A DNA stretch of 64,000 bases. Source: Boothiomyces macroporosus (taxonomy: Eukaryota; Chytridiomycota; Chytridiomycetes; Rhizophydiales; Terramycetaceae). The stretch spans positions 124,001 through 188,000 of the forward strand of contig JADGKB010000003.1 in NCBI GenBank assembly GCA_027604185.1. Reading direction: 5' to 3'. A model generated the notes under the pieces. That model saw only the letters and a list, made by a program, of their open reading frames with translations, did not search any database and was not told the origin of the DNA. Of the stretch, positions 1 to 64,000 are shown piece after piece (within the stretch, counting starts at the first letter, position 1; each line of letters begins with the position of its first letter). Made by a program: the position numbers and the translations under genes.

Positions 1-779
1 GACATTTTTGATAGCTCATAAGCCATACGAAGCTTTTCATAATCGCCACGGAGTGTTTCCACATCGTCAACCACTTCAATCCTTTGAAAAGCAACATCGT
101 CTTCGGCCTCCAACTCGGCCCTAATCTCTGTTGTATCGTCGTATTTACGTTCGGAAGGTAAAATGGTTACCAAATTCAAATATTTGTTATCCGAATCCGC
201 ATTAGATGCGGTATCTTGATGATTGTCTGCCTGGAATAACAGCGAAATAGGACCAATCATTATCACATCGCCATCCGTTAGCTTGTGTAATATATTTGGC
301 TCGATCAAGCTGTCATTAATTCTAACTCCGTTCGAAGAATTGATATCTTTGATAAAGTAGCTAATTTAAAAAGCAGGTTACCCTTCTGCAGTCTTGATAA
401 CTGCCGCATGTCTCTTGCTGATTTTGAAATCGGGTAAATTGATGTCATTTGTATCCTTACTGCGTCCGATTGTAGTCTCATTCTTTCTAAGCGTAAACTC
501 CATTTTTCCTCCATAGTTGGTGTGATATATCAATTTCGCCGACATCTGGTCACTTTCGGAACCTCTTTGTTGCGTTTGAATGATTAAATTTTGAACTTGG
601 TTTGCAAGCTCATTTGGGGTATCAGAGCGTGAAGTATCTGTAACCACTGAAATAGTTGAATTAGAGCGCTGAAATAAATTGGTTGGATTTGTGAGTGTAG
701 TGCGTTCTTCAAACGAAGAGTTGTTTTGTCTCAACCCTACGTCTCTGCCGGATGAGGATGTTCGAGGTCTGTATGCCAT
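1..779 (-). CDS. FHA-domain protein, N-terminal part (runs off left edge)
   Basis: Exons 779-382 and 360-1, joined over a 21-nt intron (361-381); the gene continues beyond base 1. A Ser/Thr/Asn-rich head of about 90 residues leads into a clear forkhead-associated phosphothreonine-binding domain: the GRS, SKRH and NSSNGVRIN motifs are present, the last one after the splice. Past the domain the readable part is acidic and ends in a short helical stretch. FHA followed by such a linker also occurs in GAF/cyclase proteins, but the C-terminus is outside the window, so no enzyme can be assigned. The ATG at 779 is the first one fitting the frame; a longer frame from 812 adds only 11 residues with no support. 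Confidence 0.8.
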
Positions 780-1085
780 TTGATGCAAAAACGGAACTTT
801 TAACACGCACAAAAACTAAAGGTGGCGTGATGAGCCCACTAGGCAGGAAAAGGGAATACAGAGCAGAATAAAGAATATCTCTGACATAATATTTTTATGC
901 GCATATAGCTGGGTGATAGATTTGCCAGCGACTGTTCTGTTTGGGGCAGAAGATTATATTTGCTTACAGAGCCAGTAAAACCAAAGATTTCCATCTATAT
1001 GACTCTGTATTATACCTGTGATGTATGTATTTTCTCAAATAAATCCTGTCATTGTTCTTCCTGTCAAAAAACCACCTGTTGCAAA
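780..1085. promoter_or_regulatory. Divergent intergenic region
   Basis: 306 bases between the FHA gene (minus) and the kinase gene (plus). It must hold both promoters. I see no defined element in it. The kinase reading frame is open upstream to 960, but its first part (cysteine-rich, including an ATG near 999) does not resemble a kinase N-terminus and is taken as 5' leader. Confidence 0.4.
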
Positions 1086-3010
1086 ATGGAGCCAAAACCC
1101 AACGACACATCTAATGAGATGGATGACAGCAGTCAAGGAAAGAAATCGAGGCAGAAAAGTATTCAGCCAGATAATACAGTGAGCGAGGACAAATCTATAA
1201 AGAAAACGTCCGGAAGTAAAGGAACAGTTGTAGGGAATTACCAGTTATTGGAGACTATAGGAGAAGGATCCTTTGCCAAAGTCAAAATAGCAATCCATCA
1301 ACCAACTCAACAAAAAGTTGCGATTAAGATTATTGACAAGACAAAGATGACGGACGAATACTCAATCAAAAATGTACATAGAGAAGCCCAGGTCTTGCGA
1401 AGCTTGGATCATCCTAATATTATAAAGCTTTTTGAAGTGATGGAAACAAAAAAGAACATATTTTTGATACTGGAGTATGCAGAAGGAGGTGAATTGCTCG
1501 AATATATTGTCGATAAAGGAAAGCTGAAAGAAGAAGAGGCTAAAAGGTTAACAAAACAAGTATTATCTGCCATTGTAAGCTTCAGTTGACTGTAGGAACA
1601 CGCACACTCGATGAAAATTGTCCACAGAGATTTGAAAGCAGAAAACCTACTATTAGATGACAACATGAATGTTAAAATATCAGGTTTGTCTATTCTAACA
1701 CAGACTTTGGTCTCTCAAACTACTACGACCCAAAGAACTTTCTACAAACTTGTTGTGGCTCACCAGTCTATTCCGCTCCAGAACTTATTGATGGAAAAAG
1801 CTACATTGGGCCAGAAGTAGATATCTGGTCTTTGGGAATCAATGTTTATGCGATGGTGGTCGGCGACCTGCCCTTTGCTGACTCCAATTTAACTGCCTTG
1901 TATGAATCAATTCTTAAAGGAAAATACGAGTTACCGGAACATGTGACGCCAGGTATTCTAGGATTTAAATAAGATTGCCGGGATTTCCTAAGCAAGATGC
2001 TTCAAACCCAGCCAAAAAAGAGAAGTACTTGTACCCAACTGATGGAACATATTTGGTTGACAGAATCATCTTCGTTCTTGGATCCAATGGAAACTGGGTA
2101 TAGAGCATTTAGACCAAAAACTGAAGATCAAGTAGATCAAAAGATATTGGAATTAATGTTTGAAAAGATGGCAATTGACAAGAAAGCTGCAATTCAATCT
2201 CTTCTGCAAGGAAAGTTTAATCAGATAGCCGGCACGTACTACCTATTAGCATACCAGAAGCTAATTGGCGTAAAGAATAATATTGTAGAAGTAGCACCCC
2301 AGCTAATTCCAACAGCGGCAAATTCAAACAAAGGGGCTGATATTAGTGATGAATTGGCAAGAGTACTTTTCCAGGTGGAAAGAAATAGAAAAGTAGAAGA
2401 CAAAAAACCAACCAACAAAGAAGCTAAAGCTCTCCTTGAATTCAAACACAAGGGGAGGCAAAGCTCAAGCAAAGAGGGAGGAAACGTGAAATTAGAGAAA
2501 TTAGAAGCGCCAGGCACACCGATAATGCTGCCCCAGATAGCAGACAGTGTGAAATACACAAACTACAAGTCGCTCGGAATGGCAAATTTAAAAAATGCTC
2601 TTCCCCAACTCCCTCAAAAAGATTCCTTTTCTGTACCCAAATATGGTATGGCGAACAAGCCCCATAAAAGTATCCCTATAGATGATAGTCTGTATAGCGA
2701 CGAGGGAACAGATCCAAATAGCGAAGTTCGAACGATAAGGTTTGCCTTTAATTGTGTCTGTTCTTCAGTGAAAACTCCAAAGTCCTTGTTTGACATCTTG
2801 ATTGACATACTGGATAAGAACGATATCGTATGGTATCATGACAAGTACATCTGCGACTGTGAATGGGGAGATATCAAGTTTGAAGTGGAGATTTGTAAAT
2901 TACCAAGAATGGAGAGCTATGGATTCAGACTCAAACGGAATTCCGGTGACATTTGGGAATTCAAAAAGATTAGTTCCAAGATCTCGCAAGAACTAGAAAA
3001 AGCAATATAG
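1086..3010 (+). CDS. MARK/PAR-1-like Ser/Thr protein kinase (kinase-UBA-KA1)
   Basis: Exons 1086-1574, 1596-1683, 1704-1952 and 1974-3010 (introns 21, 20 and 21 nt); 620 aa. The kinase domain starts near residue 51 with the GEGSFAKV glycine loop, then VAIK lysine, HRDLKAEN catalytic loop, DFGLS (restored by splicing) and a [10 protein letters not shown] activation segment typical of the CAMK/AMPK group. After it comes a UBA-like helical segment and, at the extreme C-terminus, a KA1 domain with EVCKLPR-like and FKRxSG-like motifs. This order is that of MARK/PAR-1 kinases, which phosphorylate microtubule-associated proteins and control polarity. Fungal Kin1 kinases share KA1 but usually lack an obvious UBA, so the animal-like order is notable. 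The start is the ATG at 1086, about 50 residues before the kinase domain. Confidence 0.9.
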
Positions 3011-3036: not shown

Positions 3037-4684
3037 ATGTCAAATTTGAATTTTGAAATTCACAATGCTAAAGCGGAAGAGGCACTGTTGATCAATTTAA
3101 AATTCCAGCAACAATTTCCAGAACATATTTGGCAGAACGAGCCGTTCCATGTAAAAGTAAAGGATGGAAACTGTTTGGAAGGAAGTTTGAATTATGGGGA
3201 TGCAATCGAAGATGAATGGATTGTTGTTTACTTTCTAAGACAGCTTTCAGTTGAAGAGCAACATTATATCATCAAAATATGGGATAGCGATGGGGAGTTC
3301 TTGCTGATAGAAGCTGCCGAATTTCTTCCCAAAGATATTAATCCTGAAATAATAGATCACAGAGTATATATTCACAAAGGACATTTGCATTTAATTCCTC
3401 TAGAGTATCAAGATTTAACATTGGAAAAATCAATCCAACTGGTCTCTACAACGGAAAACACTAGGGCAAGTGTAAAAATCGAAGAGGCAGCCTTCAAACG
3501 TATAGAAAATTACCCATCAATTATAAAATCCAATATCCACCATGCTAATGTGATGATTCCACACCTTGCGGCTCATTTACTGCATCATTGTCCACAACTA
3601 GTAGCACCAGCAGTTGAAGCGTTTTACAATAGAGATGCATCAACTATGAAGCCATGCATGTACATGAAGGCTTTTAAGCCGTCTACAAATGTACCAATGA
3701 CGGTTAGATTTACAAAAGTTTTATATTCAAAACTGTATTCTGTTCCTTTTGTAGCACCACAGCCATTCAATATGCCACCAATTTCAGATAGTACATACGA
3801 GGCATGTAATTTAGGGATGAAGTTGGCATGTGGATTTGAAATACTGTACCATTCTGCAAACTTTGAGAAGGTAATAGTTGCTAATTCCAGTTTACTGATT
3901 CTTCAAATACAAAATATGTTGAATACATAAATAGACTGGAGTCATTAGGATATTTTAGAGGAGAAATTCAAGGATCAGCATTGTATACCAAGCTGGAAAA
4001 GGCTGCTCTAAATGAGTTTCTGTCTCACCAATCTGAAAATCAATATCTTTTTGGACAGATGCAAGCGCTGATGGAAATGGAATTAACCCCAGTTGAAGAT
4101 ATTCCTTTATTCAAAGAAGATTCCAATGACTGGATGTCCATGGATCCATCTCAAGTGGATGACATGTTAAAAACGCAGGCAACCCCGTTTGATGAAAATG
4201 ATTTGGTAATATTAACTAACCACAGTCGGATTTGGATAAAGTAGAAGAAAAAGAGTTTGAAGAAATGAAGGCCATGCTTGGTGGATTTAATCAATTTATA
4301 TCAAAGAAAAGTGGTGTAAAAGGTGCTTTACTGCCTAGTGAATTGGATTCGGATGATTCAGAAGAATCAGACGGTTCGTTGGAGCCAGTTTCGTTTAATG
4401 CAGATAATTATATGAATGTTCTATCAGTTAATGGTGAGAATGACAATAGCAAAGCAGATATGGACGTTCTATATGCTGCAATGGATGAAGAACTCCGTCA
4501 TACTGAAATTGGAAAGGACTTTGAATCAATTAGGGGTGTGGATGGTGAAGATGAGATTGATGTGGACCTGAATCTAATGAAAAATATGCTAGAGTCATTT
4601 TCGGCCCAAAATGGATTGGCAGGTCCAACATCTAATCTCATAGGCTCTCTGGGACTCAATCTTCCTAAGCTTGACAAGGAATAA
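3037..4684 (+). CDS. ECD: Ecdysoneless/SGT1 family protein
   Basis: Exons 3037-3870, 3891-4205 and 4226-4684, with two 20-nt introns, both phase 0; 535 aa. The N-terminal half has the conserved ECD signature: a DEWIVVYFL motif near residue 67, IWDSDGEFLLIEAA, and a region around NPEIIDHRVYI. The C-terminal third is acidic, with LDSDDSEESDGS and repeated short helices, as in the family. Known family members (human ECD, fission yeast Sgt1) act in transcription and in pre-mRNA splicing through PRP8 and R2TP contacts. It starts 26 nt after the kinase stop, so the two genes are nearly head to tail. Confidence 0.9.
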
Positions 4685-4743: not shown

Positions 4744-5828
4744 ATGCTCGCAACTCAGAATCCCCCAGCATTACCAGGGAATGATTCAAAAAAAGACAAG
4801 ACCTACACCTTTGCAGCAGAGCCAAGATCAGTTCAGCAAAAATCAAACTTTCATGATGAAGGAAACGCGAAAGTCCATACGTGATTACATGCTAATCCTA
4901 GTTCTGTCAATATAATGCATGATAGAAGAATTCATAGGGGAAATACGTACGCTTCTCCAGCTATGCCGTTGGTAAATTGAGTGCTAATCTAGAATGGCGT
5001 CGATCCAATCGAAATACAAAAACAACAGGAGCTGAAGAGAAAATTGAGGGCAAAGCGCAAAGCAGAAGCAAGACGCCGTGTAAGAACGCCTGAAGCAGTG
5101 GAAGGAAGGAAGCATATTGATGTTCAAACAGATTTATACCTGGAAGAATTGAGCGATAAAGTTCCAGAAGCAATTGCCATGACACAAACAGATGCATTCT
5201 TGAATAGAGCACCTTCACCTCTCTATATTCCTCAAAAAAGCGGTGTAGATATCGCAACTCAAATATATGATGGAGAATTATTTGATTTCGATTTTGAAGT
5301 AAATCCAATTTTGGAAGTGATAGTCGGAAAAACAATTGAGCAGGCTCTAATGGAAGTTAATGAAGAACAGGAGTTAGCCACTATTAGAGCCCACCACGTA
5401 AGAATTCCATAACCAAGCGCCGTTTCGAAGAATTAAGAAATGCTGAATATGCTGAAGTTCAAAGAATGGAAGATGCGGAGAGAAGACGAACTGAAGAAAA
5501 AGAAAGAAGAATAAAGGAGCAGCTAGCCATCCAGAAGGAAAAGGAAGACGCTGCAGAGAAAGTTGCGGCTAGGGCATTCGCCAAGAGTTATTTACAGACC
5601 CTAATCCCATCTGTCTTTGACAGTCTAGCTACCAATGGCTACTTTTATGAAGCTGTGGAAAAGGAATTGGAAATCTCCATCTTGCCATGGCTGAACACTG
5701 AAGTTGAAAAGTCCCTCAAAAAGTTTGAAATTTCTAGAAGATTGGCTGATGGTAAATTAAGCCTAACAATAGATATTATTATGTCTGCAATCAAAAAGTA
5801 CAAAGGTGAGAAAAAGGACGGTATTTAA
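4744..5828 (+). CDS. RSP3: Radial spoke head-stalk protein 3 (RSP3), flagellar axoneme
   Basis: Exons 4744-4880, 4902-4971, 4993-5397 and 5418-5828 (introns 21, 21, 20 nt); 340 aa. After splicing the conserved RSP3 features appear in order: N-terminal FAAEPR and NIMHDRRIHRGNTYA motifs, a basic KRKLRAKRKAEARRR helix, and the family core with IATQIYDGELFDFD and PILEVIVGKTIEQALMEV. A charged coiled coil and a compact C-terminal helical domain follow. RSP3 dimers form the radial spoke stalk and anchor kinase A in motile 9+2 flagella. It is only 59 nt past the ECD stop. It is the strongest evidence in the window that the organism makes a motile flagellum. Confidence 0.93.
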
Positions 5829-5892: not shown

Positions 5893-7443
5893 TTACTTAT
5901 TTTCAGGTTGAGGGGCAGGTGTTGGAATAGGTCCTTCTTTTGTTGCAACTGGATCTAGTTTTGAAGCCACGGTTGGGAGTACAGTAGTCTGGGGTGATTT
6001 TGCCCCGGTAGTACTTCTAGTAGCAGAAGTTGGAGAGTTAAGGCTGGAGATGTTACTTTGAACCGTCTTGTAGTCCCTCGTTGGACTGACAGCAGCTTTT
6101 GCGACTTGATACTGTTGATATTCAGAAATCAAATCAATTAAATTACTTTCAGCCTCTGAAAATTCCAACTCATCCATACCTTCTGCAGTATACCAATGCA
6201 TGAAAGCCTTTCTCCTAAACATTGAAGAAAACTGTTCCATTACTCTGCGGAAGAGCTCTTGAATACAGGTAGAGTTTCCAATAAATGTTGAAGACATTGG
6301 CAATCCGCGTGGTGGGACATCGCAAACTGTGTTAATAATACGTTACTGGCTGTTTTGGCGTTATTTGGAATCCATTCCACAAATAACTGAGAATTTTTTT
6401 GCTGATAATTGAGCAGACATTGATCTACTTCTTTGGTAGATACCCTTCCTCTGAATATTGTGGCAACGGTCAAATATCTACCATGCTTAGGGTTGCAAGC
6501 GGTCATCATATTTCTTGCTTCAAACATTTGAGTAGACAGGTCATGGACAGTCAGGTTTCTGAACGGTTTAGAGTCTCTCGCTGTTAATGGCGCGAATCCA
6601 ACCATAAAGAAATGCAATCGAGGGAATGGAACCATATTTACAGCTAGTTTGCGTAGATCTGCATTAAGTTGTCCAGGGAACCTAAGGCAAGTAGTAACTC
6701 CGCTCATTACTGCAGATACTAGGTGGTTCAAATCACCATAATTTGGGCTTTGGATCTTCAATGTTCTGTGACAGATATCGTACAGTGCCTCATTATCGAT
6801 ACAGAATATTTCATCGGAATTTTCAATCAGCTGATGAAGGGTCAAGGTTGCATTGTAGGGCTCTACGACTGTATCCGAAACTTTTGGAGAAGGGACAATT
6901 GAATAAGTACAAATCATTCTGTCTGGATAATCTTCTCGAATCTTATTTAATTAAATTTTACCTTTGAAAGTATTAGAGATCCCAATCCCGATCCAGTTCC
7001 ACCTCCAAGTGAATGTGTCAATTGAAAGCCTTGTAGCGAGTCGCATCGCTCAGCTTCATGGCGAACACCATCCATAATTTGCTCAATCAACTCAGCACCT
7101 TCCGTGTAATAACCCTTTGCCCAATTGTTTCCAGCACCTGATTGTCCAGTAATAAAGCTATCTGGTCTAAAAACGCTACCAATAGCTGATCCCTGTACCA
7201 ACTCCAGGATACCAGGTTCCAAATCGACATTGACACATCTAATTAATGTTTATGCTACCTTGGCGAATATCTCGACCCTCTGATTTCGTTAAAATAAACA
7301 GAGAGTTTTTCCCTTCTAATATCTTCTTCCCCAACGAAAAATCCGTCATTATCCAAACAATGTTCCCCCATCAACGTTTCCCAAAACTTTGAGCCTATTT
7401 GATTTCCGCATTGCCCAGCTTGGATCTGAATAATTTCCCTCAT
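5893..7443 (-). CDS. Divergent beta-tubulin with long Ser/Pro/Thr-rich C-terminal tail
   Basis: Exons 7443-7259, 7238-6962, 6941-6347 and 6326-5893, with three 20-nt introns; 496 aa against about 445 for ordinary beta-tubulin. Clear tubulin motifs: MREI autoregulatory start, [17 protein letters not shown] nucleotide loop, [36 protein letters not shown] and [17 protein letters not shown]. The N-terminal 60 residues are unusually divergent. After EYQQYQ the normal short acidic tail is replaced by about 75 residues rich in Ser, Thr, Pro and Lys, with almost no acidic cluster. Because the body is intact and spliced normally, I read it as a working but specialised isotype, not a pseudogene. It converges on RSP3 with 64 nt between stops. 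Confidence 0.93.
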
Positions 7444-7598: not shown

Positions 7599-9533
7599 AT
7601 GGAAACACAATCTATGGTCAACATCGCACCGAGCGAGGAAGATACTGCGAACTTGATTAAAACCCTAGAGTTGGAAATTCAGGTTTTTACATTTTAAATC
7701 TAGACATTGAAGCAAGAGCAATCCAGATCCCTCGAGACCATTACACGAAAAAATGGTTTACTTGATACACAGCGCATTAAAATCAAGCAATATGAATTCG
7801 CAATTCAAGAGGCTATGAACTATTTGGCAAAACCTCTGAATACTTTTGAAGAATGGATGAATGGCGACACTGCAGAGGATTTTGAGCAATTTGCTGCCCT
7901 TGATTACAGGAAGGCAAAATCTAATCCTTATTTAAATCAACCACCTGAAAGCTCAAACAATTTCATACGTAGATCGCTGGGCAATACGCAAGCAAAACCA
8001 CCTGGTATTACCTCCCATACGAAAAGCATATCTACACCACCCACTTCAGATAAACCAAAAAAAGACGTGCCAGACTTTTCCAAACTGGAAATTACATGCC
8101 TCGAGAGCATGAGAATTGGATTCAACTTTTTAAAAAACTGTCAGAAACAAAACAACGCGCTGGATATGGGCACCTACGTTTTACCAGAAAGCGCGGTGAT
8201 CAAAGGAGAAAACGAAGCTCTTGCGCTGGCAAATTTTAACCCAGTAAATGAAGAGCAAATCGAAGTTGAACCCAAAGAATTGGAAAAACGCTCTTCTTTG
8301 TCCCCATCGCACAAAGTTTTTTCATATCCAAAAATTGATGAAGGTGGAGAAGGCGACTTATCGGCCACTGCGAACGATTCAGACTTGAAAAGCCCCATGT
8401 CAATACACAAATGTGAAAAGTGTCATGTTTCATTGTTGAAAATCGATGCATTGAACGAAAAATTAGATTCAGCAAACAAACTAATTTATGACTTGGAGGG
8501 ACGACTTCATAAGGAAATCAAAAGCAAAAAGGCTAGCCAACAAGCAAAAGAAATGATGGACAAAGAAATTGAAGATATCACCGCAGAGCTATTTGCACGC
8601 GCCAACCAAATGGTTATAGATGAATCTCGAAAGGTGGAGGAATTATATGCAGCGAATAAAGAGCTAACAAAGCAAATGGATGATGCCGCAGCAAGACTGA
8701 AAGAAAGAGAATTGGAGTTGTACCAAGCCTCTCAATGTTTACATGAGCTTCAAAGCACAGCTATTCATTCTAGTTCATTTTCAAAACAAACCTCTATCAA
8801 AAAGCCAGGACAGGCTCATGAAATTCCTAGTCCAACACACAGGCTTCCTACAGAGTTTAATCACTCAGTAATTGCTGGATTTGACAGGTTCCCAACGTCA
8901 ATGGCTGTTGACGGGTTTATATTCCAAGAGTTTCAAGAGCTCATTAAAGTAATAGTTTTATCCGCAAACATGCCGTCTTTGCAAGCGTTCCAAGCAATTC
9001 ATGGAACTCTGTTTTTGAAAAGATGCCAAATAGAAGATGTAGAGCCTTGCTTGTACTATAACTACCAAACAAACAGCACTTTCAAATCTTATGGACCAGG
9101 GCTAACTCAATCATTCAAAAAGAAGATATTAGATTTGTGTATCCGCGGGCAGGTCCATCCGTCTGTTATTGAAGTATCCGAGAACTCTCCAATCCCAAAA
9201 GCGAAATGTCTGATGTGTACCGCAATTAGAGAATGTGAATATTTAGTGAAGCTTGGGCCTTCCGATGCTCCAAAGCAAGAAGTGGCCCATTCCTGCCGCG
9301 CATGCAGAGACAGGTTGGTCTCAGTCACCGATTTTTTCAACTTTATTACCTTTATAAGTGCAAACACCCAAGGTGCAACCATTCTATCCACTTTTAAACA
9401 AGTGCTTTGGCTAAGGCGACGAATGCAGTTGGCAAAGATAGGAAGTGGCAGCATGTTTGAAACGGAAGTTACCGCCATGCTTGGTCCTGGAGGAGCAGGA
9501 GATTGGGAGAAAAACATAGACGTCATATATTAG
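7599..9533 (+). CDS. Sec2/Rabin8-type Rab guanine nucleotide exchange factor
   Basis: Exons 7599-7682 and 7704-9533 (21-nt intron); 637 aa. The central coiled coil (about residues 265-370) contains the Sec2 GEF signature EIEDITAELFARANQMV, the segment that opens Sec4/Rab8. The N-terminal 250 residues are polar and low in structure. The C-terminal 200 residues form a folded domain with two CxxC pairs (KCLMCTAI and SCRACRD), as in fungal Sec2 and animal Rabin8/GRAB proteins. Family role: activation of Rab8-type GTPases for polarised exocytosis, and in ciliated cells for ciliogenesis. The start ATG lies just upstream of the short intron. Confidence 0.85.
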
Positions 9534-11079: not shown

Positions 11080-12550
11080 TCAGTTTTCTTGTGCAGGAGG
11101 TGGTGGTGCAGGTGGTTGCTCTCCAGGAAGGATAGCACCGGCAGTTTGGTTCCAATTTGGTGCTTGTGCATTCTGAACAAATCCATATGGACCTCCAGCA
11201 CCAATGCTCGCGCTAGCATTCCAACTTGATGGGACAGTCTCTGGCCCAAGGAAGGGTGCTGTTGGAATTGCATAAGTGTTTGTTCCACCCAACTCAGCCA
11301 TAAGATTAGCATACTCATCATCAAGTTTTTGGTCACGTTGGTTAGCAGCTTGCAGAACATTTGGATCGTTCTTGTAAAGACAGTCTAAATTAAAAAATAA
11401 ATTACCTCTTGCCAAATGCCCAACACTGTTACAAATTCTACACACCAGGGTAGCAGTAAAGTTGGCAGCTTCTGTACATTCGAAACGACGATGCCCAACA
11501 CCACCACAGTTGGTACAGATTTGATTTTCGTCATCTCTAAGTGTACCGTTAAGGGCTGCCAACTCTCTCAATTGATTACGCTTCAATTCGTTGTGACCTT
11601 CTGGAACACTTGTTGCCTAAGTTTAATATATAACCTACCGTTTCAATAATTTTGTTGATCATTACAATCGCGGCTTTCACACGATCTTCAGTATCACCAC
11701 TAACGAGAGCATGTAGTTCTTCTTCCTCTCCTTGCTGACCACTGGTATCCAATCTTGCCTTTCCTTCTTTGACGGATCCCTTTCCACGAATACTGATCTT
11801 TGTTCCAGTTTCAGTTTCCATTTTCTTCAGTGTGTTTCCACGAGGTCCAATAAGCAACCCAATAAAGTTGATGTCTGGATAATCCCTTAATGGAATATAA
11901 ACCTTTTCTGCCAATTTGGAAGGTCTCTTGTAATCTGCAGGAGGTCTAAATCCAATAATAGTGCGCATTCCCAATTCAACAAGAGCATGTCGTTCATCTT
12001 CCAGTATTTTACGATACCTTAGATCTCTAGTATTGTCTCTGCGGCCATCTGGACCATATGTTGGCTCTGGAGATACAGATCTATGATAAAATTTAAAAAG
12101 TTACCTTTTGTCATTTGGGACATAATCGCCCAAACGTAAACGCCTTCCCAATTCTTCAATTCTCATATGAATAATATAATTATCAATTTGTTCATTTGTT
12201 AAATCCGATGGAAGTGAAGTTGGTAATCCAGGGATATTAACCTTGTCATGGACTGATCCCCACCTTGTTTTTCGCTTTGGCGGTCTTCCTTCTCTTTCTT
12301 CGTCTGAAACAGGTGAATCATGGTGTTTAATTTCAGGCTGTCTTTCATGTTCTGAATGTCTTTCTCTTCTCCTTGACGAATGATAGTCATCCCTAGACCT
12401 TTTTCTATCCCTGTCATAGTCTCTTGAAGAGTGTCTGTCTTCCCTTCGGCGGTAATCTCGATCCCTGTCTCTTTCTCTGTAGTCGTCTCTTCTCACATCT
12501 CTGGAAGAGTACCTGTCTTCCCTTCTGTCCCTGTGTCTGTCTCTGTCCAT
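11080..12550 (-). CDS. SF1: Splicing factor 1 / branchpoint-binding protein
   Basis: Exons 12550-12105, 12080-11639, 11616-11406 and 11384-11080 (introns 24, 22, 21 nt); 467 aa. An Arg/Asp/Ser-rich head of about 80 residues precedes the U2AF-ligand tryptophan motif KRKTRWGS, then the helix-hairpin SF1 domain, a KH-QUA2 RNA-binding fold with LIGPRGNTLKKME, and two CCHC zinc knuckles (CTNCGGVGHRRFEC and CRICNSVGHLARDC, the second split by an intron). A Gly/Pro tail ends in PAPPPPAQEN. SF1 recognises the intron branch site in early spliceosomes. It interrupts itself with introns of 21-24 nt, among the longest in the window. Confidence 0.95.
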
Positions 12551-12701: not shown

Positions 12702-12709
12702 AACCAAAT

Positions 12710-21404: not shown

Positions 21405-21520
21405 TATATATTTCGAATTTGTATTTATGAAAAAGTATAATTTGAACTGCTTTTTGTGCTTTCTACTGTAATTGCAATGTCATTCGAGTCGCTACTCTTG
21501 GCAGTTGCTACATTAGTTAT

Positions 21521-44087: not shown

Positions 44088-44118
44088 GTTTACAACAAAT
44101 TTTGACACGCGTTTTTAT

Positions 44119-52546: not shown

Positions 52547-53881
52547 CTACTTTGAAAAAATGCTGATTGCGGCCTGCAGTTGCGACTGCGATGGACAAGG
52601 GATCGCCTTATCCCATGTGTAGGAAGGTTTGATGCCTAACCAAGATATAGCACTGATATCTACTCTGAATGTAAGAGAAGCGGGAATCGTTCCCGAATTT
52701 TGACCTATGCATCTCGCTTCCATCAATTGAATTGCTGGATCGGTCGCTGGATTGGATGAAACGGTGTATGTTACGCTACTTGGCTAGGATTAGATTGTTA
52801 TTACCAAAACAAAAGTAGTGTTCGCTCTCGGAGGAAAAGCTAAATCATTTGCTGAACCACCGCCAACAAATCCGCTTATTTGGTTACCAGAGGTATCTTT
52901 CACTGCAATCTATCGTTAGCTATCGTTTACATCCACACTCAACTGATGGATTCCAATCTTGAAATAGCTAAAGGATTCCACAGAAATATTCACAGCCATA
53001 TTGAATTGGAAGGTGTTTGTTGTTGATTTGGTAGCTTGAGCCAAAGGCACGCCATTCAACAACACCCCATCAGTACCTGCAGGTACATAAAAGTCTGTAC
53101 TGCTGACATTTGGGGCTTGTGGGACAAACAAGTAAATGATAACTCCCAAAAGAGCCAGCAAAATAATTGCGATAGTGATAATACAAGTAGATCTTTTGGT
53201 AAAACAGCAACAGTAAGTTCTAGGGATAGGTTTCAGTTGTGCTTCTTCTACATCTTCTTTTAAAACTACGGTATCGGGGGAAAAGAAATCCACTGGTCGC
53301 ATATTTCTTTCACTTGGACGTGCGCTGTTGATTTTATTCCCTGATGGAGAATATGGACCAGCGCTACCATAAATATTCCCAAAATCTTTACTTCTTCCAT
53401 TCGTTGAATTTCGTGAATATCGCTGCGGAGTATCTGGGTTTGAATAATTTGGATGTGAAAATAGTTTCTCCCTTTCTGGTTCTTGAACTGGTTGTGGGGT
53501 TGAAAAATCGTTGTAGCTCAAATGCTTTTCTGAGGTGGCCATAGTTGGAGTATATGGCCGCTCAGTAAAACTCTGAGGGGCAGAATAATCGTTGTACAAC
53601 TGTTCTTGGGAATAATCATAATATTGATTTTGATATGGATACTGCCCATCATAATTTTGGTAGCCATTTGGATACTGCGCATACTGCTGGCTGTACCCAG
53701 GATGGTTTGCAGCTTGAGCGTCTGTAATAAATGGCGAATTCACTGGATCATAAGATGCATCTCTAGGAAGATACTCTGGGTTTATCACACCACTTTCAAC
53801 TGTTGGCTGTAGCCTCTCCATTGTTTTTTGGATCGATTTGTTGTCCTTTAAAAATTCAGATACAGACTGCTGTTTGGACAT
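52547..53881 (-). CDS. LEA2-like single-pass membrane protein C
   Basis: Exons 53881-52931, 52909-52805 and 52783-52547 (two 21-nt introns, both phase 0); 430 aa. Long disordered cytosolic head of about 220 residues rich in Tyr, Gln, Asn and Pro, then a Cys cluster (RTYCCCFTKRSTC), membrane helix IITIAIILLALLGVIIYLF, juncture VPQAPNVSSTDFYVP and a beta-rich ectodomain ending WLGIKPSYTWDKAIPCP. The ectodomain, the two intron phases and the terminal CP motif match genes A and B; the Tyr/Gln head is unique to this copy. Confidence 0.82.
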
Positions 53882-54267: not shown

Positions 54268-54618
54268 TTATTTTTCAGGATGAGATACTTCAATATGCTT
54301 ATTCACATTAAACTTGCGCTTGTACACTAAATTAGAAACAGCCTTACACTTTTCACAATATGGACATTTTATGTATCGCAGATTGTCAATTGATATAATT
54401 TGAAATGGTTTTGCTTTGGCGTGGTCAGGCGGAGCTGCTGTGCTATTTGCAGGCAAGAGCGGACTTGTGGGTGGTATCGGCTTATGAATGTGATAGAGTT
54501 GAGACTGGTATTCCTGATCGCAGTATTCCAGTAGTTGAGCAAAGCTAGGGAGTATATTACTTGCAACTTTAGGCATGTCACACCAAGTACCTTTTGGAAA
54601 GAAAAAATTTCGCCTCAT
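54268..54618 (-). CDS. Small protein ending in one C2H2 zinc finger
   Basis: Exons 54618-54348 and 54326-54268 (21-nt intron); 109 aa. A Pro/Ser/Ala-rich body leads to a single finger at the very C-terminus. Unspliced, the finger would be Cys-x2-Cys-x19-His, which does not fold; removing the stop-free 21-nt intron gives CPYCEKLYKRKFNVNKHIEV then SH, a canonical Cys-x2-Cys-x12-His-x4-His. The protein ends five residues later. Probably a DNA-binding regulator. A sister gene with the same terminal design lies at 55816-56266. Confidence 0.7.
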   Translation of the reverse strand: MRRNFFFPKGTWCDMPKVASNILPSFAQLLEYCDQEYQSQLYHIHKPIPPTSPLLPANSTAAPPDHAKAKPFQIISIDNLRYIKCPYCEKCKAVSNLVYKRKFNVNKHIEVSHPEK

Positions 54619-54809: not shown

Positions 54810-55645
54810 TTACAGCACGGCGGGCTTAATTTTTCCACCCGTTTTAAGAGTTGGGTTAACACCCATCCATGATAATGGGCTAAACTGGCCTAAAACAGTA
54901 ACATTAAACTGCCCATTCAAATCCTGTTTGGTTATGTTAAAAGGGACCATGATGACAGTGGTATGTCTGGGTTGAGTGTCGATATTTTCAATAATTGAAG
55001 AAGGCAGATAACCAGATGCTAACTGAACCTAAAATTAGGGATAATTACAGTGACATTCAAACTTGTAAATCGGTAATTAATGTATGCAGGAGAGTACACT
55101 GAAATATTAACAAATGCTGGTATAATATCTGGCGGGTAATTTGGCAAATTCAAAGTGTAAAATAAATCAGATACATCGAGCTTGGGTAATTGAGGAAGGA
55201 GAAAGTATAAAACAATGCCAAGCACAATCAAACATCCAACTACAACAGCGCTAACAAGCAGGGTATTATGGTACCAACGTATTCTATTTTTTTGTTTTGC
55301 TACATTACCAGAAATACTATGGTAGTCATCAGATACGAGTAGGACCGGCGATAGTGATATAATTTCAATTTGTTCATCCGCAGGTTCATTCGATATTGCG
55401 ACAGTATCAATTGACGAACGATCAGTAAGATCCGGAGCAGATTTATGCAAAGTTGGCTTTCTTTGTAGCGTATCGGCCCTGTACTCTTGTGGTTTAGGAA
55501 CCATTATCGAGTTGGATTTTCCAATTTCAACACCAGAGCTTTCGTCATTGATGGAAACCAAAGATTCGTTTTCGCATGATTTGAATGATTCGTTTAAACT
55601 GACTGTATCCTTTTCATTATCTTTGAATTCCTTGTTTTGTTCCAT
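54810..55645 (-). CDS. LEA2-like single-pass membrane protein D
   Basis: Exons 55645-55049 and 55028-54810 (20-nt intron); 271 aa. Acidic Ser-rich cytosolic head of about 120 residues, a membrane helix LLVSAVVVGCLIVLGIVLYFL, the family juncture LPQLPKLDVSDLFY and a shorter ectodomain with NISV, NVTV, NITK and NVTV sequons ending SWMGVNPTLKTGGK. The most divergent of the four LEA2-like genes; it lacks the cytosolic Cys cluster and the terminal CP motif. Start chosen at the ATG before EQNKEFKDNEK; 17 further upstream codons are open but unlike the family. Confidence 0.75.
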
Positions 55646-55815: not shown

Positions 55816-56266
55816 CTACGCTCTCTTGTGAGCTGCTGTGATGTGCATGTTTAGTCCAGAGCGTTTTTTGAATGCTACATTAGTAAAAAGTACCTTTTGG
55901 GCATTGGTTGCATTGAAAGTGCTCGCTGTAAAGCTGCTGATCATTTTTCCAGGAAGCACTGGGGTGGGTTGATCCAAACTGCCTAGTCCAAGTAGAACTG
56001 TGAAAAGTAGCTGGCGCAAGCAGTTGCTTTGTGCGATGAAGTTCAACCAAAGCATAGGCGGCTTCCAACTCTTTTGCATCAGTGTGTGGGTGGGTATTGT
56101 GCACAAAGGAGTTGATGCTAGGTAGTTTTGAATCGTTGCGTAATAGTTGTTTAATAGGAGGCAACTGAAAATCCATCTCTTTAATTTGGGTGAAATGATT
56201 TTGAATCGTCTCACACTTCAAGGGGCCTCCCTTGTGTGACATGCCAAATTGGGGCTCTGCCAGCAT
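55816..56266 (-). CDS. Small protein ending in one C2H2 zinc finger (paralogue)
   Basis: Exons 56266-55894 and 55874-55816 (19-nt intron); 143 aa from the ATG at 56266 (a second ATG is at 56242; the open frame has no ATG further up). Mixed polar body with PPIKQLLRNDSKLPSINSF, then a terminal finger FQCNQCPKAFKKRSGLNM followed by HITAAH and KRA-stop. The intron cuts the finger after the second Cys at the same codon phase as in the gene at 54.3 kb and in finger 1 of the 50.4-kb gene. Confidence 0.7.
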
Positions 56267-56514: not shown

Positions 56515-58143
56515 CTACTTGTCCAATCTAACATTAGTTGATATTACCTGCAAATAGGGTTTCTGGCGACCATTTCCAAATCAAGCTTGTGCCCAAAGAG
56601 CTCTCTGATATTGTTCAAACCATATTTGATCATGGTTGGACGTTCAGTAGAGAGACCCCAGGCAATTACACGAACATCCTCTGGTAGCCCCATTGGAAGC
56701 AACATTTCTGGTCTGAACATACCAGAGTTTCCAATTTCAACCCACTTGTTGAGTCCCTCGTGCCATGCAAAGATCTCCATACTTGGTTCAGTGTAAGGGT
56801 TATATGCAGGTTTGAATCGAAGCTTTTCCATGCCCAATTTTTTACAGAAACCGTGTAAAACACCAATTAAATCTCCCATTGTGACGTTACGATCAGCAAT
56901 CACTCCTTCAATTTGATGGAATTCAGCCAAATGAGTAGCATCGAGGGTTTCGTTTCTGAATACTCTGTCGATAGAGAACCACTTGACTGGTTTGAATTCC
57001 TTTTGTTGTGCCAGTTGATAAAGCAAGTTGGAACTAATAGCAGTGGTATGAGTACGAAGAACCATTTTTTGAGCTTCTTTTATGTCCCAGTTGTAATTAT
57101 AACCAATTGATCCATATCCACCTTGAGAATGTACTTTTTTCACTCTTTCTAGGTATTCTCCTGGCAAATCGTGACACACAGCAGGCTCAGATAAGAAGAA
57201 AGTATCGTGTGCATCTCTAGCAGGATGTTGCTGAGGTTGGAATAATGCATCAAAGTTCCAGAATGAGGATTCAACATATTTGTTGGTTGGCATTTCTGAG
57301 AAACTGAGTTAGGCTAATATTACCCCATTTCAAAGAAAATTTGCTTGAATTCATCTCTCACTTTCAAAAGTGGGTGCAGATGGCCCCTGGAAGGTGGTGC
57401 ACCGACTGCTTCAAAATTATATTTTTTGAAAGTTGCATTTTTCCACGCTCCAGAAAGCAGCATTTCTGCGGTGATATCAGTTTCTTCCTTGACGATTACA
57501 GTGCTGAACTTGATTCCTTTAGTTACTTTGTAGAAAGTAACTTTTCTAATATTAATTGAAGGTACAATGGTGAAATCAACTTTCTCTTTTTCAAAGCAGC
57601 GATAACTGATGCATCCGGATGAGCTCCAGTATTTTTAATTAGAGTCAAATCTATTTGAGATTGATCGGTAATGGAGTCCACCTTTAATTAGATTGTTAAT
57701 ACTGCACGGACGATATTTCCAGTCGAGGTTTTAGAGATCCATTTGGCTTTGAATGCTGCACCTTGACCAAACTTGGCCGCATTACCTACAATTTTCTGAA
57801 TTAGATTCTCATTACTGTAATTTCTGGGATTGAAATTCCTTCACTTCCAGCTGGGATTGCATTGAAAACTCTTGCTTCGTGACTTCCAGTTTCGCTGATT
57901 TCCTTTCCTTCTGCTGTCAACTCCCATTTCTCTGTAACTAGAGATTCGTATTCAACCATCTACATTAGGCCAAGTTACTTCTCTACTTTTCAAAGCATTC
58001 AAAACTCCTAGGAATTCCAATTGATTAATTGGTTTTGCTTTTCCATCAACGGGAATTGTGAGCCCATCAGTAGTTGGAATTTCTTGTTTTTCATCTAGAA
58101 GCTTCAGAATTAAATCTTGATATTGCTGTCTTTCTTGAGCCAT
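56515..58143 (-). CDS. Phenylalanine-tRNA ligase alpha subunit, cytosolic
   Basis: Exons 58143-57979, 57959-57816, 57795-57703, 57681-57566, 57545-57324, 57303-56548 and 56527-56515 (introns 19, 20, 21, 20, 20, 20 nt); 502 aa. N-terminal DNA-binding-fold region (ALKSREMVEYESL rebuilt by splicing, [11 protein letters not shown]), [17 protein letters not shown], then class II core: [19 protein letters not shown] (motif 2 region), [20 protein letters not shown] and the motif 3 [20 protein letters not shown]. The last exon supplies only four codons, giving the family ending NPICRLDK. It forms the alpha2beta2 PheRS. The 13-nt last exon is the smallest exon in the window. Confidence 0.96.
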
Positions 58144-58197: not shown

Positions 58198-59569
58198 TTA
58201 TTTCCAAATGGATGATTTGCCACTCGCATTGGCTGAATATATAATGTTGAGTTGAGGGTGAAATTCATTTACTGCCGGAATCGCGGTCAAGTTATCATCC
58301 AGCGATGCCATTCTCCTGCCTAGATCGTCGAATATATCAACAGATCTTTTCATATTTCCAATTACAAAACAGCTTTCTACAGATGAAGGTTTCCAAGTAG
58401 CCTTGAATTTCTGCACCCAGCGGCCTAGAATTAGACGGAATTACCTGTATTGTTGTTATGCTTTACAGATACATGAGTAGATTCCCCCAACACATTTCTC
58501 CATATTCCTACAGTATCATCAAAAGAAGTAGAAAGGATGTGTTTACCGCTTGGATCCCAAAAAGCACTATTGACAGATTTTTGATGTTTGAATGAATAAA
58601 GGGATTCGTTCTCTTCTTTCAAATATCGCTTGTCAAAAACCTGCACATAATTGTCTAGTCCACTCACACAAAAGTAATCTGTTGACATTGGATTGAAATG
58701 TACGGTATTCAGCTTTTTTGCACTAACAGTGTAAAGCTGAACTGGTTTTTCGCGCTTATCTGTCATTCCTACCTCGCCCTGGTCAGTAGAGAACCAAATC
58801 TCATTCGTTGTTTGATTAATAAATGTAATCATACTCTCTTCTGGATGAACATACACCTGCTATCAAAAATAATTACTTCATCAATAATATTTTTATCAAT
58901 ATCCAACGATCTGACTGACCCGTCAACCGAACAAGTGTACATCTTTTTTAGATCGTTGGCGTCATACAATATTTTGTAAATTGGAGAGACGTGAGGTTTT
59001 ACGGTGTGTACAACAGGCTCAAAGTCCTCTTGGCCAACATTTGATAACGTATGATCGACATCCCAAAAAATCAGATTTCCCTTCTTATCACCAGCAACTG
59101 TGAGTAATTTTGTCGGCGAAGGGTGGGGTGCTAAGGTGTATATCATTTCCTTGCATAGCTTCACCGTCCCAAATGGTATTTGGTTCTTAAATTCATCGTA
59201 TTTCGACGGTATGGATTCTATTTTCTCCTCTATATCCCCAATCATATCCCCGATTCCGATATCTTGAGGCAATTCAATTTTTCCCTCGATACGCTTTCTG
59301 CTTTGTTGATATTCCCTTTCCTTTTCCTGCATTTCACTTAATACCAACTCTGCTTCTTTTCCTTCCGGGTCTTTTCCTAATGCTCTTAGAGATCTTCTAG
59401 TTGGCTCCAATACTTGTCGTTTTGAGGGTTTACTCGCCTTTGCTGGTGCCTTCCTCTTTTGCGGAGCTGCCGGCTCCATCTTGATTTTATTCAATCCCAG
59501 CTCCGCCAGGAATTTGTTGTTATTTTCTATATTTTCGAGCCTTTTTAATTCGTACTCTGAAAGTGACAT
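58198..59569 (-). CDS. CMR1/WDR76-like WD-repeat DNA-damage protein
   Basis: Exons 59569-58877, 58856-58445 and 58424-58198 (two 20-nt introns); 443 aa. Basic head starting MSLSEYELKRLENIENNNKF, the CMR1/WDR76 opening, with ELGL and PTRRSLRALGKD, then a seven-bladed WD propeller: IYTLAPHPSPTKLLTVAGDK, NLIFWDVD, FWDPSGKHILSTSFDDTVGIW, and a final blade ending SSIWK. The family binds chromatin, sits in nuclear quality-control foci and contacts CUL4-DDB1. The intron-1 splice restores the HPEESMITFINQ blade. Confidence 0.9.
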
Positions 59570-60845: not shown

Positions 60846-61468
60846 TTAACTCTTTCGAAAGGATTCACGAACCAATTGTATTTCAAACTCCCTTGATAAA
60901 TTAGTAGGGAAAAGAGGTTTTTCGAATACTGTTCTCAGAATAATTTTGAAGGGCTTGGTATATACGCAACTAATAGAGCATCTATGGATTAGCATTACCT
61001 TACGTATCCATGTCGATCACTTGGCACTGCAAGATGTGGTCTCCCATCACTTTAATATTAACATCATCAAAAATAAAAAAGATATTTGGGTTTTGGTCCT
61101 CAGGATCTATCAGTACCTGACCTTCGACTGTAAGATTTCCAAACATGTTCTGACTGAACGGCTTTTTGGAATAAGGTGTGTTACGTAGATTCGAAAGGAT
61201 CTCGTATCTATCACAAGAATATAAAATCAAATTACAAATCAAATTCAATGAGCGCAACTAGCTTTAAACACGTATTACTTGAGATAAAGTCCGGGGGGAA
61301 TTGAATACTGTTTGAACTATAAGCGCTGGATATCTAAATTAGTGAGAAATACAATAGACTTTTGATGTAAGGCTGTTTGAGTCCAGACTCTCTACCTGAC
61401 AACGGTTCTTGTCTGATTCTGATTTTTATTTCTTGTTTCATTAAAATTTCCTGGATCGTAACCTCCAT
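60846..61468 (-). CDS. Velvet-domain transcription factor
   Basis: Exons 61468-61353, 61333-61279, 61257-61004 and 60981-60846 (introns 19, 21, 22 nt); 186 aa, essentially a bare velvet domain. Splicing restores the order of velvet motifs: IKIRIRQEPLSGRESGLK (the QQPxxAR region), YPALIVQTVF, a central MFGNLTVEGQVLIDPED, FFIFDDVNIKVMGDH (the FxFxDLSVRxEG equivalent), then a C-terminal VYTKPFKIILRTVFEKPLFP and EIQLVRES. Velvet proteins are fungal NF-kB-like DNA-binding factors coordinating development and metabolism. Several signature residues differ, so it is a divergent member. The frame is open upstream of the ATG, so a longer N-terminus cannot be excluded. Confidence 0.72.
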
Positions 61469-61873: not shown

Positions 61874-62848
61874 ATGAGCAAGATAAAGAGAAAACCAATC
61901 ACACCATCGGATGAACCCCCAGAATTACCAAAAAGAAATACTCTCAGTCACAGTGCCTCCTATGCGTCATCAATAAGTTCAGATATGGATATCAGACCAT
62001 CGCTACCTGTCAGAAATTCAACATACACTAAACAGTCACCTACAAAAACAGAAGATTTGAAGCGATTAAATACTTTCTTGTATACTCCAAAAAGATTATT
62101 TCCAGGAGATCACATTAGGTAGCTATAGCCTGACAAAGAACAAATACAATTACTCAGTTTGACGCTAATCCTCAGGTCGAAGATTTACTTGTAAACTCAA
62201 CAGGACTTAAGAGGTCTTCTACACTCAAGGTTACCGCAAAATAACAAAGGATTTAAGAAGACATGTTAGAGATAGAACAAAGAATCCTGACGATGCAGCA
62301 TCAGTAGATTCTTCAAAATCCACCAGGGAAGACGCTGCAAACAAAATCAAGACCGCGTTTAGCGAGCTTGAAGCACTGAAGCGAAAAAATGAAGAGTTGG
62401 AAAAGAAGCTGTCCAAGTATGGTAATATTTATCTGACAAGAAATGAAATCAGATAACAAGGAATCGAATGTTAAACAAATATGGGATGATATTCAAGTAA
62501 AATTCGTTAATGTAGGAAATGACAAGCTCGATGATGAAAGAGCTAAAGTTATCCAGAGAAACAAAGGACAAAACACACGAGGAACAGGTCAAAGAAGCGG
62601 TGATTGCAAAGACAGAAAAGCCGCCAAATACAGATTCTGAAAAATTACACGTCAAGACATCAAAAACAGCGTCTCCAAAGCTAGAATCCACCGAAATAGA
62701 GAAGGTCATACGAAAACAAGCTTGGGTTGAGCCTTTGAAACCAGAAAAGATTCAAGATAGTACAGACACGTTGGACGCACAAGATCCGGACCTTTCCTCG
62801 CAGTTCCACTCTGATATGCTAAAAATGATGACCAGCTTTGGCTTCTAA
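61874..62848 (+). CDS. Unrecognised coiled-coil protein
   Basis: Exons 61874-62118, 62139-62229, 62250-62421, 62441-62496 and 62516-62848 (introns 20, 20, 19, 19 nt); 298 aa. Basic start (MSKIKRKPITPSDEPP), a Ser/Pro-rich segment (ELPKRNTLSHSASYASS), a short coiled coil around SELEALKRKNEELEKKLSK, a charged linker, and a conserved-looking acidic end LDAQDPDLSSQFHSDMLKMM then TSFGF. No family recognised. Placed 62 nt before an HMMR-like gene on the same strand. Confidence 0.7.
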
Positions 62849-62910
62849 TATAATATTAATTAGATTTTTGTTGTCCGAAATTTTTCAGAGATCTTTTTAT
62901 AATCTGCGAA

Positions 62911-64000
62911 ATGTCCACCTTTGGGAGAGCAGCAGTGAAGCGGTTTACGGACTCTAGTAAATTACATATTTAACCGCAGTATCTGAAACACCAGGACCCA
63001 CAGCATATTCGGTTGATCAGTCTTCTATTGTAAATAACGATCCAAACAAACATTTTGGATTTCTAGAAAAGAAGGAAAGATTTAAAGACCTTGTCAAGGA
63101 ACATGCCAATCCAGAAGACACAGATTACGCCAGCGAAACCTCTGAAGTTAAGCCCACTGTTCGAAAGTGCAGTGGTGGCGAAAAGGAAGAATTGGGAAAG
63201 CTCAAGCACAAAGTAAGACTGATCTGATGTAGATGGAAAAGCTGGAAGAGCAGTATATCAGAAAATTACAGCTAAAAGAGAAAGATTTTAATTTTATTCA
63301 AGAAAAACTTAGTAGAGCAGAGCAACAATACCAGAACGCAATCAAAGAGAAAAATCAATTCCAATCAGCGGCTCTAGTGAAAGAAAAAGAACTTGCGGAA
63401 GTCAGCCGTAAATTGAGTGCCTTAAAGTTGAAGGTAGGTCAATCTAACCATAGTTGGACAAGGAGGAAAAAATCTCTGCACACTTTAATGAAAAGGTAGC
63501 AATGACTGATGTTCTTCAAAGAAAAGTTGAAGAAATGGAAAAATTGCAAGGGAAGCAAAAAAAGTTGGCAGATCGCAAGATGCTTCATGAAAATGAAACT
63601 TTAAGCTACGATTTGCAAAAGTACAAATCAAAAATGGAAGCCCTTGAAGCTGAAAGACTCAGACTTGATTCTTCCGTATTGCAACTACAGCAAGATCGAA
63701 ATACATTGAAGAGTAAGCTTTCTGCTTTACAAACTACTTTTGAAAATGAAAAAGAAGCTTGGCGATCTTCAGAAGATAAGTATAAAGAAGAATACCGTGA
63801 AATCAAAAAGAGATTTATTGCAGAAAACGAAAAAAGCTCCTTGATGAAAAAAGAGTTTACGGATGCACTTTCATCGGAACAGCAGAAACTCAGGGAAGCA
63901 GAAAAGAGAAATGAAGCCCTCAAAACATCCCATGAAGCCCAAAAGAATGCTTACTTGGCACGAATCCAAAACCTTGAAACAGATTTGGATATTACTGAGC
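62911..64000 (+). CDS. HMMR/RHAMM-like spindle and centrosome coiled-coil protein (runs off right edge)
   Basis: Exons 62911-62956, 62980-63212, 63233-63433 and 63454-64000 (introns 23, 20, 20 nt); incomplete at the right edge. The opening MSTFGRAAVKRFTDS followed by ETPGPTAYSVD and HFGFLEKKERFKD matches the conserved N-terminus of hyaluronan-mediated motility receptor (KRFNDPS, PGAYDV). The rest is continuous heptad coiled coil. HMMR is a microtubule-binding spindle-assembly protein found in animals and many flagellates, not usual in yeasts or filamentous fungi. A further 26-nt intron-like stretch at 63499-63524 is in frame and open, so I keep it as exon. Confidence 0.72.

Follow-up and report, generated by a model that had tools for sequence, protein, structure and literature searches.

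Tiny introns have been described in the ciliate Stentor coeruleus (15 to 16 nucleotides, nt; PMC9505925), the parasite Mikrocytos mackini (16 to 17 nt; PMC10245619), the nucleomorph of Bigelowiella natans (18 to 21 nt; PMC6461891), and the ciliates Paramecium and Nyctotherus (about 25 nt; PMC5014332). Here, we report the introns of a 64,000-nt stretch of nuclear DNA (the window; contig C3, 124001-188000) from Boothiomyces macroporosus (Chytridiomycota, Rhizophydiales, Terramycetaceae). Nearly all of them are 19 to 24 nt long. Very probably they belong to the ordinary U2 type (GT-AG) of spliceosomal intron and have shrunk, throughout this fungal genome, to a physical floor.

B. macroporosus resembles Stentor in near-minimal intron length genome-wide, GU-AG ends, AU-rich sequence, a branch-site adenosine (branch A) 5 nt upstream of the 3' end, and standard U1 and U2 motifs; it differs in that its branch A lies at intron position 14 to 16 (10 to 11 in Stentor), in having both SLU7 and PRP18, which are listed as not found in Stentor, and in being a fungus rather than a ciliate (PMC9505925). 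Mikrocytos shares the nearly invariant tiny introns but has 224 of them and a reported spliceosome of 17 to 19 proteins plus U2, U4, and U6 (PMC10245619), whereas in B. macroporosus the coding sequence holds about 2 introns per kb, and U1, U2, U6, and six splicing proteins were found. The B. natans nucleomorph is similar in length range and in high intron density (about 3 per kb), but it is a relict endosymbiont nucleus of 373 kb (PMC6461891), and Paramecium and Nyctotherus share the single narrow length class, although their introns are longer and the hosts are ciliates (PMC5014332). A survey of 644 fungal genomes reports that chytrids keep many introns and gives Cryptococcus neoformans (mean, 63 bp) as a short-intron example; Boothiomyces is not named in its main text (PMC8476143). 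In a limited literature search, we found no account of introns of about 20 nt as the norm in a fungus, nor of Boothiomyces introns.

The original prediction, made from the window alone, had likened these introns to those of nucleomorphs and ciliates. The likeness stands insofar as they are of spliceosomal type and close to the smallest known; the organism, a chytrid fungus, is neither. The assembly carrying the window comprises 15.2 Mb in 216 contigs (GC content, about 39%), not a sub-megabase relict nucleus, its SF1 and U2AF65 match Boothiomyces, and the best named matches of both proteins are chytrid fungi (from match lists, not a tree). On the strength of these matches, an aphelid or sanchytrid origin, also considered, was set aside.

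Intron lengths

Genes were called with a gene finder that scored both strands by codon-level coding statistics and modeled introns explicitly; its intron-length prior was flat over 10 to 400 nt, so that short introns were not preferred. The training set (264 kb) for splice sites and, later, lengths consisted of the window and 20 stretches of 10 kb, each from one of 20 other contigs. The first flat-prior parse of the window, with a coding model trained on long uninterrupted frames and no learned splice sites, placed 19 of 66 introns at 19 to 24 nt. When 256 donor/acceptor dinucleotide pairs were compared in the window, GT..AG came top (log-likelihood, -82945 versus -83009 for the runner-up), a comparison mildly biased to GT..AG, as the coding model had been retrained on GT..AG parses beforehand. 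The GT..AG run placed 22 of 64 introns at 19 to 24 nt; the remaining 255 pairs gave 3.4 on average, and the highest count among them, 13, belonged to AG..TA, a register-shifted pair.

With sites learned and lengths flat, 294 of 359 introns in the 264 kb measured 19 to 24 nt (82 of 91 in the window). Length learning raised this to 431 of 454 (80, 187, 97, 44, 19, and 4 at 19, 20, 21, 22, 23, and 24 nt, respectively) and to 105 of 112 in the window. A restricted window parse, in which introns were confined to 18 to 26 nt and thus short by construction, gave 108 introns, every one of 19 to 24 nt, in 39 of 47 gene models, at a total cost of 20 nats.

A model-free count tallied GTA..YTRAY N0-2 YAG by total length, with 20 dinucleotide shuffles as the control. 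The window held 15, 30, and 17 such strings at 19, 20, and 21 nt (shuffles, 1.0 to 1.4), 0 to 5 at other lengths between 12 and 40 nt (3 at 22 nt), and a mean of 2.3 over 41 to 120 nt (1.2 shuffled), never more than 7. In 200 kb elsewhere in the genome, the same motif occurred 57, 78, and 28 times at 19, 20, and 21 nt, 2 to 12 times at the remaining lengths between 12 and 40 nt, and at most 15 times at 41 to 120 nt.

The flat-prior parses, the 256-pair comparison, and the model-free peak at 19 to 21 nt thus confirm the earlier claim that nearly all introns of the window are 19 to 24 nt long, and the sample of 264 kb from 15.2 Mb indicates that nearly all are shorter than about 25 nt genome-wide. 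The five introns that had been given as examples (1684-1703, 3871-3890, 6942-6961 on the minus strand, 24992-25010, and 36466-36484) all start with GT and end with AG on the coding strand, and the gene finder recovered each of them. The earlier tally of about 100 introns in 36 genes is replaced by the 108 in 39 gene models given above; the rule that introns begin GTA and end AG needs loosening at the donor, which reads GTA in 102 of the 108, GTT in 4 (including 1684-1703), and GTG in 2. Of the introns of 18 to 25 nt in the 264 kb, 102 have a length divisible by three; 80 of these, if read through, hit an in-frame stop, so that retaining them would in most cases disrupt the protein.

Splice sites and branch sites

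Intron structure was described from 434 of the 454 introns, those of 18 to 25 nt, with a branch motif forced on every intron. The third donor base was A in 91%, and the commonest donor was GTAATT. G at +5, usually strong in fungi, was found in 19% and A at +4 in 61%, despite a U1 with a standard 5' end. The acceptor was TAG or CAG in 386 introns, and the forced search converged on a YTAAY branch site. The distance from branch A to the last G was 5 nt in 190 introns, 6 nt in 162, and 4 to 7 nt in 404, the last corresponding to a gap of 0 to 3 nt between the branch motif and YAG; branch A lay at intron position 14 to 16 in 389. Pyrimidine runs of at least 9 occurred in 4 introns. As had been predicted, then, the branch site sits a few bases before the AG, usually 5 to 6 nt before the last G. 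This distance had been called extremely short; short it is, but it sets no record, since the Stentor tail is 5 nt (PMC9505925). Their GT..AG ends and the U2-complementary branch motif close to the 3' end are features of U2-type introns.

Of 312 flat-prior introns of up to 40 nt, 223 contained a strict YTRAY and 89 did not. In this strict set, branch A was at position 14 in 101 introns, 13 in none, 12 in 1, and 9 to 11 in 11, which we take as misassigned motifs. Loop length (the position of branch A) has a sharp floor at 14 nt. Loop and tail length showed no trade-off in the flat set (rank correlation, -0.03).

Spliced proteins

Independently of the gene finder, spliced proteins were aligned to solved structures, with gaps within 3 residues of a junction read by eye; 7 of the 39 intron-bearing window genes were aligned. 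Family alignment had been proposed as a check on the splicing, and it bears the introns out: 25 of the 28 junctions inside the alignments were gap-free within 3 residues (beta-tubulin, 3/3; PSMB6, 5/5; kinase versus MARK2, 3/3; phenylalanyl-tRNA synthetase [PheRS] alpha, 5/6; VPS35, 6/7; SF1 versus human SF1, 2/3; and the MoaA-like gene, with 1 of its 2 junctions inside the alignment, gap-free, and the other outside). The remaining 3 each had a one-residue gap within 3 residues. Spliced SF1 had the same length (467 amino acids) as GenBank HDV04_002115 of Boothiomyces sp. JEL0838 and was 99% identical to it; the next relative was from Globomyces pollinis-pini, against which the gapped SF1 junction was gap-free by eye. 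SF1, the branch-point-binding protein, is itself encoded inside the window and split by three tiny introns.

The GenBank U2AF65 protein, taken to come from the same assembly, was identical to our spliced model over 3 of 5 introns (20, 19, and 19 nt). The GenBank model (HK103_002678; locus L026 1119-2551, on contig C2 near 122543) has an upstream gene fused in. In addition, our 19-nt intron is replaced there by one of 52 nt, at the cost of 11 residues that the 19-nt version retains and that are found, two changes apart, in Globomyces. A tiny intron is mishandled in at least one public gene model from this genome, and chytrid annotation may need correction.

Splicing machinery

The motifs read in the small nuclear RNA (snRNA) genes were standard. 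U2 had two diverged genes (C80:60682 and C178:9607), both with an intact branch-recognition GUAGUA; U1 had one candidate, scoring 68.8 bits (just below the gathering score of 69.5), with the standard 5' end ATACTTACCTG; and U6 had one gene with a standard ACAGAGA. SF1 carried a U2AF ligand motif (ULM)-like segment, a helix-hairpin, KH-QUA2, and zinc knuckles (from the human SF1 alignment and the Pfam domains of the near-identical homologue). Slu7 (contig C112) was recognizable by its zinc knuckle and core and Prp18 (C27) by its core region; Yju2 (C109) had no introns; and U2AF35 (C1) was matched exon by exon, in a gene model without its first exons. The introns placed in Slu7, Prp18, U2AF65, and U2AF35 measured 19 to 23 nt. 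Among the parts searched (U1, U2, U6, SF1, U2AF65, U2AF35, Slu7, Prp18, and Yju2), a reduced spliceosome was unsupported. A survey of the machinery for changes matching the tiny introns had been suggested; U1, U2, and SF1 gave none, their motifs and domains looking standard, and a possible one appeared in the first RNA recognition motif (RRM1) of U2AF65 only.

A query with the U2AF homology motif (UHM) of SPF45 gave a single weak match, beside an RRM, that looks RBM39-like to us. RED, a factor required by human short introns, went undetected in a genome search without a meaningful control, a miss that does not show absence. A Methyltransf_10 (METTL16-family) gene was present; the family is common to bacteria too.

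The U2AF65 gene lies on C2, and its spliced protein matched human U2AF65 at 1e-61. Its RRM1 RNP1 reads EHCHVEFR (human, NFAFLEFR), with His at both aromatic positions, which we take to be human F197 and F199. In the best 120 of 1,417 matches, the first and the second of these positions were each F or Y in 118; the sole row with His was the B. macroporosus protein itself, and the His pair occurred in 0 of the 119 others. One homologue among these 120 (P0124), a U2AF65 relative 55% identical to that of Boothiomyces, likewise lacks the aromatic residues in RRM1, having Ser and Ile there. B. macroporosus U2AF65 keeps the RRM2 RNP1 (SKGFAFCEY), the ULM tryptophan, the RRM1 RNP2 Tyr, and the C-terminal UHM. 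Human U2AF65 binds nine contiguous nucleotides (PMC4786784); against this footprint, the 0 to 3 nt between branch motif and YAG would make full polypyrimidine binding impossible at its usual place. RRM1 of U2AF65 may thus have relaxed, a correlation seen in one lineage.

Genes of the window

Intron-bearing gene models, with introns in window positions, are as follows.
1..779 (-), partial gene, presumably FHA-domain-like; intron 361-381 (21 nt)
1086..3010 (+), Ser/Thr kinase (AMPK/MARK type; MARK2 alignment); introns 1575-1595, 1684-1703, 1953-1973
3037..4684 (+), gene taken to be ecdysoneless-like; introns 3871-3890, 4206-4225, and doubtful 3791-3814
4744..5828 (+), gene; introns 4881-4901, 4972-4992, 5398-5417, 5752-5772
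5893..7443 (-), beta-tubulin; introns 6327-6346, 6942-6961, 7239-7258 (20 nt each)
7614..9533 (+), gene; intron 7683-7703
11080..12550 (-), SF1/branchpoint-binding protein, 467 amino acids; introns 11385-11405 (21 nt), 11617-11638 (22 nt), 12081-12104 (24 nt)
12710..13551 (-), Methyltransf_8 (Rrp8-like) methyltransferase; intron 12912-12931
14264..15181 (+), gene; introns 14444-14462, 14629-14648
15415..16812 (+), class-III aminotransferase; introns 15757-15778, 16533-16555
16856..18039 (-), DnaJ/DUF1977 protein; introns 17021-17041, 17344-17364, 17623-17645
19649..21404 (+), gene; intron 20555-20576
21425..23576 (-), gene; introns 21508-21528, 22327-22346, 23169-23188
24199..24779 (+), gene; introns 24301-24320, 24649-24669
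24825..25802 (+), polyprenyl synthetase; introns 24992-25010, 25298-25316, 25514-25536, 25586-25605
25808..27146 (-), gene; introns 26003-26021, 26351-26370, 27053-27071
27169..28512 (+), cyclin; introns 27532-27551, 27676-27694, 28488-28508
28564..29166 (+), gene; introns 28739-28757, 28856-28875
29252..30044 (-), gene, presumably ribosomal protein uL2-like; intron 29743-29764
31274..32694 (+), gene taken to be tRNA dimethylallyltransferase-like; intron 32361-32380
33985..36048 (+), ankyrin/DHHC palmitoyltransferase; introns 34151-34171, 34223-34242, 34893-34913, 35167-35186, 35384-35403
36124..37739 (+), gene with Myb-like and U-box matches; introns 36164-36182, 36242-36261, 36466-36484, 36784-36803, 37102-37122, 37698-37717
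38283..41371 (-), VPS35; introns 38598-38617, 39008-39027, 39403-39424, 39933-39952, 40360-40379, 40672-40691, 41125-41145
41456..42445 (-), gene, presumably polysaccharide (chitin) deacetylase-like; introns 41466-41488, 42123-42144, 42305-42325
43191..44087 (-), gene; introns 43455-43473, 43579-43598
44119..44806 (-), gene; intron 44455-44473
44849..45601 (-), proteasome subunit beta (PSMB6/Pre3 type); introns 44977-44998, 45162-45181, 45294-45315, 45437-45459, 45539-45559
45682..49095 (+), leucine-rich repeat/coiled-coil gene (by eye); introns 45847-45866, 45930-45950, 47223-47242, 47734-47753, 47909-47930, 48005-48027, 48337-48357
49187..50303 (+), MoaA/MOCS1A-like radical SAM protein; introns 49518-49536, 50200-50220
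50455..51769 (+), zinc-finger-like gene (by eye); introns 51491-51512, 51607-51627
52547..53881 (-), gene; introns 52784-52804, 52910-52930
54268..54576 (-), gene; intron 54327-54347
54810..55645 (-), gene; intron 55029-55048
55816..56266 (-), gene; intron 55875-55893
56515..58143 (-), phenylalanyl-tRNA synthetase alpha; introns 56528-56547, 57304-57323, 57546-57565, 57682-57702, 57796-57815, 57960-57978
58198..59569 (-), gene; introns 58425-58444, 58857-58876
61000..61441 (-), gene; introns 61258-61278, 61334-61352
61874..62848 (+), gene; introns 62119-62138, 62230-62249, 62422-62440, 62497-62515
62911..64000 (+), partial gene; introns 62957-62979, 63213-63232, 63434-63453

Intron 3791-3814 (24 nt) is doubtful because its length is a multiple of three and it is stop-free on read-through. 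Small membrane-protein genes of similar layout by eye (a single transmembrane segment, then a soluble part) cluster at 43191-44806 and 52547-55645 and are perhaps a local family.

The length-learned parse proposed seven longer introns in the window (31, 31, 44, 69, 71, 80, and 314 nt), all of which were rejected on inspection; as we read them, proteins or gene ends come out better from the restricted parse in most of these cases. The 69-nt candidate (23240-23308) was rejected as open in frame and encoding a hydrophobic segment, one 31-nt candidate (30629-30659) as breaking an RS-rich tail, and the 44-nt candidate (12682-12725) as replacing the usual end of the Rrp8-like protein. The 71-nt (41407-41477) and 314-nt (51762-52075) candidates each fuse two adjacent gene models. 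For the 80-nt candidate (37698-37777) and the other 31-nt candidate (62422-62452), the restricted parse offers versions of 20 nt (37698-37717) and 19 nt (62422-62440), respectively.

Discussion

We consider it very probable that these are U2-type introns removed by a standard major spliceosome, which would act by intron definition. Each intron would be laid out as a 5' splice site, a spacer, a YTAAY-like branch site (A at 14 to 16), and usually 5 to 6 nt to the last G of YAG. SF1, followed by U2, would read the branch site. As a 9-nt polypyrimidine tract does not fit between branch site and AG, U2AF would rely on AG recognition by U2AF35 and on ULM/UHM protein contacts rather than on full RRM1-RRM2 binding, and RRM1 of U2AF65 may have drifted in consequence. 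The sharp lower limits (a 14-nt loop and a tail of about 5 nt) may mark the tightest bend that this spliceosome can make.

That the short introns are an artefact, the true introns being longer and the gene models biased to short ones, is highly improbable. In its favor are the seven longer candidates and the 65 of 359 flat-prior introns outside 19 to 24 nt, a fraction that counts against our own reading too, inspection having been confined to the window. The peak at 19 to 24 nt nonetheless persists under flat priors, no second peak of similar size appears in the model-free count at lengths up to 120 nt, the longer candidates yield worse proteins or fused genes as we read them, and in U2AF65, the one gene compared in detail, it is the 52-nt GenBank intron that deletes residues largely kept in Globomyces. 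Alternatively, the segments might be no introns at all but coding DNA with insertions or frame errors, or parts of pseudogenes. For this reading, 22 of the 102 multiple-of-three introns are open on read-through, some of which may be coding (again a point against our own reading), and 3791-3814 is open too. This explanation is barely plausible, however, given that GT..AG is the best of 256 end pairs, that a positioned YTAAY is complementary to U2, that 80 of the 102 hold stops, and that housekeeping genes (beta-tubulin, PSMB6) would be broken.

Excision by another system (tRNA-type or self-splicing) verges on the inconceivable: we know of no ribozyme intron as short as 20 nt, and GT-AG ends, a U2-complementary branch motif, and snRNA and step-2 genes all speak for the spliceosome. 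In its favor is a length below what the human spliceosome tolerates, for which a spacing of about 50 nt from 5' splice site to branch site is considered necessary (PMC6692369), compared with about 14 nt in Boothiomyces; other introns of 15 to 21 nt are, however, described as spliceosomal (PMC9505925, PMC10245619, PMC6461891). A less remote, though still unlikely, alternative is that splicing bypasses SF1 and U2AF, with the U2 particle finding YTAAY directly, perhaps helped by an SPF45-like factor, and U2AF65 serving otherwise. The lack of room for a polypyrimidine tract and the RRM1 RNP1 substitutions would fit, and SPF45 replaces U2AF in a subset of human short introns (PMC8363638). Against it, SF1, U2AF35, and U2AF65 (ULM tryptophan, RRM2, and C-terminal UHM) are conserved. 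The SPF45 UHM search, with its one weak, RBM39-like match, does not tip the balance.

Several further observations weigh against standard spliceosomal removal of minimal introns with an altered U2AF65. The introns are predicted from genomic sequence. A strict YTRAY is absent from 135 of 436 introns of up to 40 nt, which leaves about a third with a branch site placed by a looser motif, and loop and tail fall short of clean independence (chi-square P, 0.0003; flat set). The U2AF65 change amounts to two residues in one protein, and with RRM2 and the RRM1 Tyr kept, it is a guess that RRM1 has lost RNA binding. The raw genome match of U2AF65 (230.7 bits) also falls below the family cut-off (310.3; TIGR01642), because the sequence was read through its introns.

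Two earlier examples of tiny introns come with losses, some step-2 factors being listed as missing in Stentor (PMC9505925) and the spliceosome being reduced in mikrocytids (PMC10245619). Tiny introns combined with checked splicing parts that are largely standard suggest that Boothiomyces separates intron size from spliceosome reduction. We advance more tentatively, as somewhat short of an even chance, that this would be a first among fungi, and also among genomes that have kept an otherwise standard, unreduced spliceosome, for introns collapsed to the floor (14-nt loop plus 5-nt tail), that U2AF65 RRM1 would have lost RNA binding with the disappearance of the polypyrimidine tract while protein contacts were kept, and that Slu7 and Prp18 would have a role other than distance bridging. 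The yeast proteins matter at branch-to-acceptor distances of at least 12 nt (PMC11651659), and their retention where the usual distance is far below this would, if the reading holds, point to such a conserved role. Introns of this kind were already known; the fungal setting with largely standard checked splicing parts and the U2AF65 change are new to us. Boothiomyces would make a good natural test of how the splicing machinery measures introns: with clear orthologues for most of the splicing factors searched by name, the minimum intron size, the need of U2AF for a polypyrimidine tract, and a role of Slu7 and Prp18 beyond distance are all testable.

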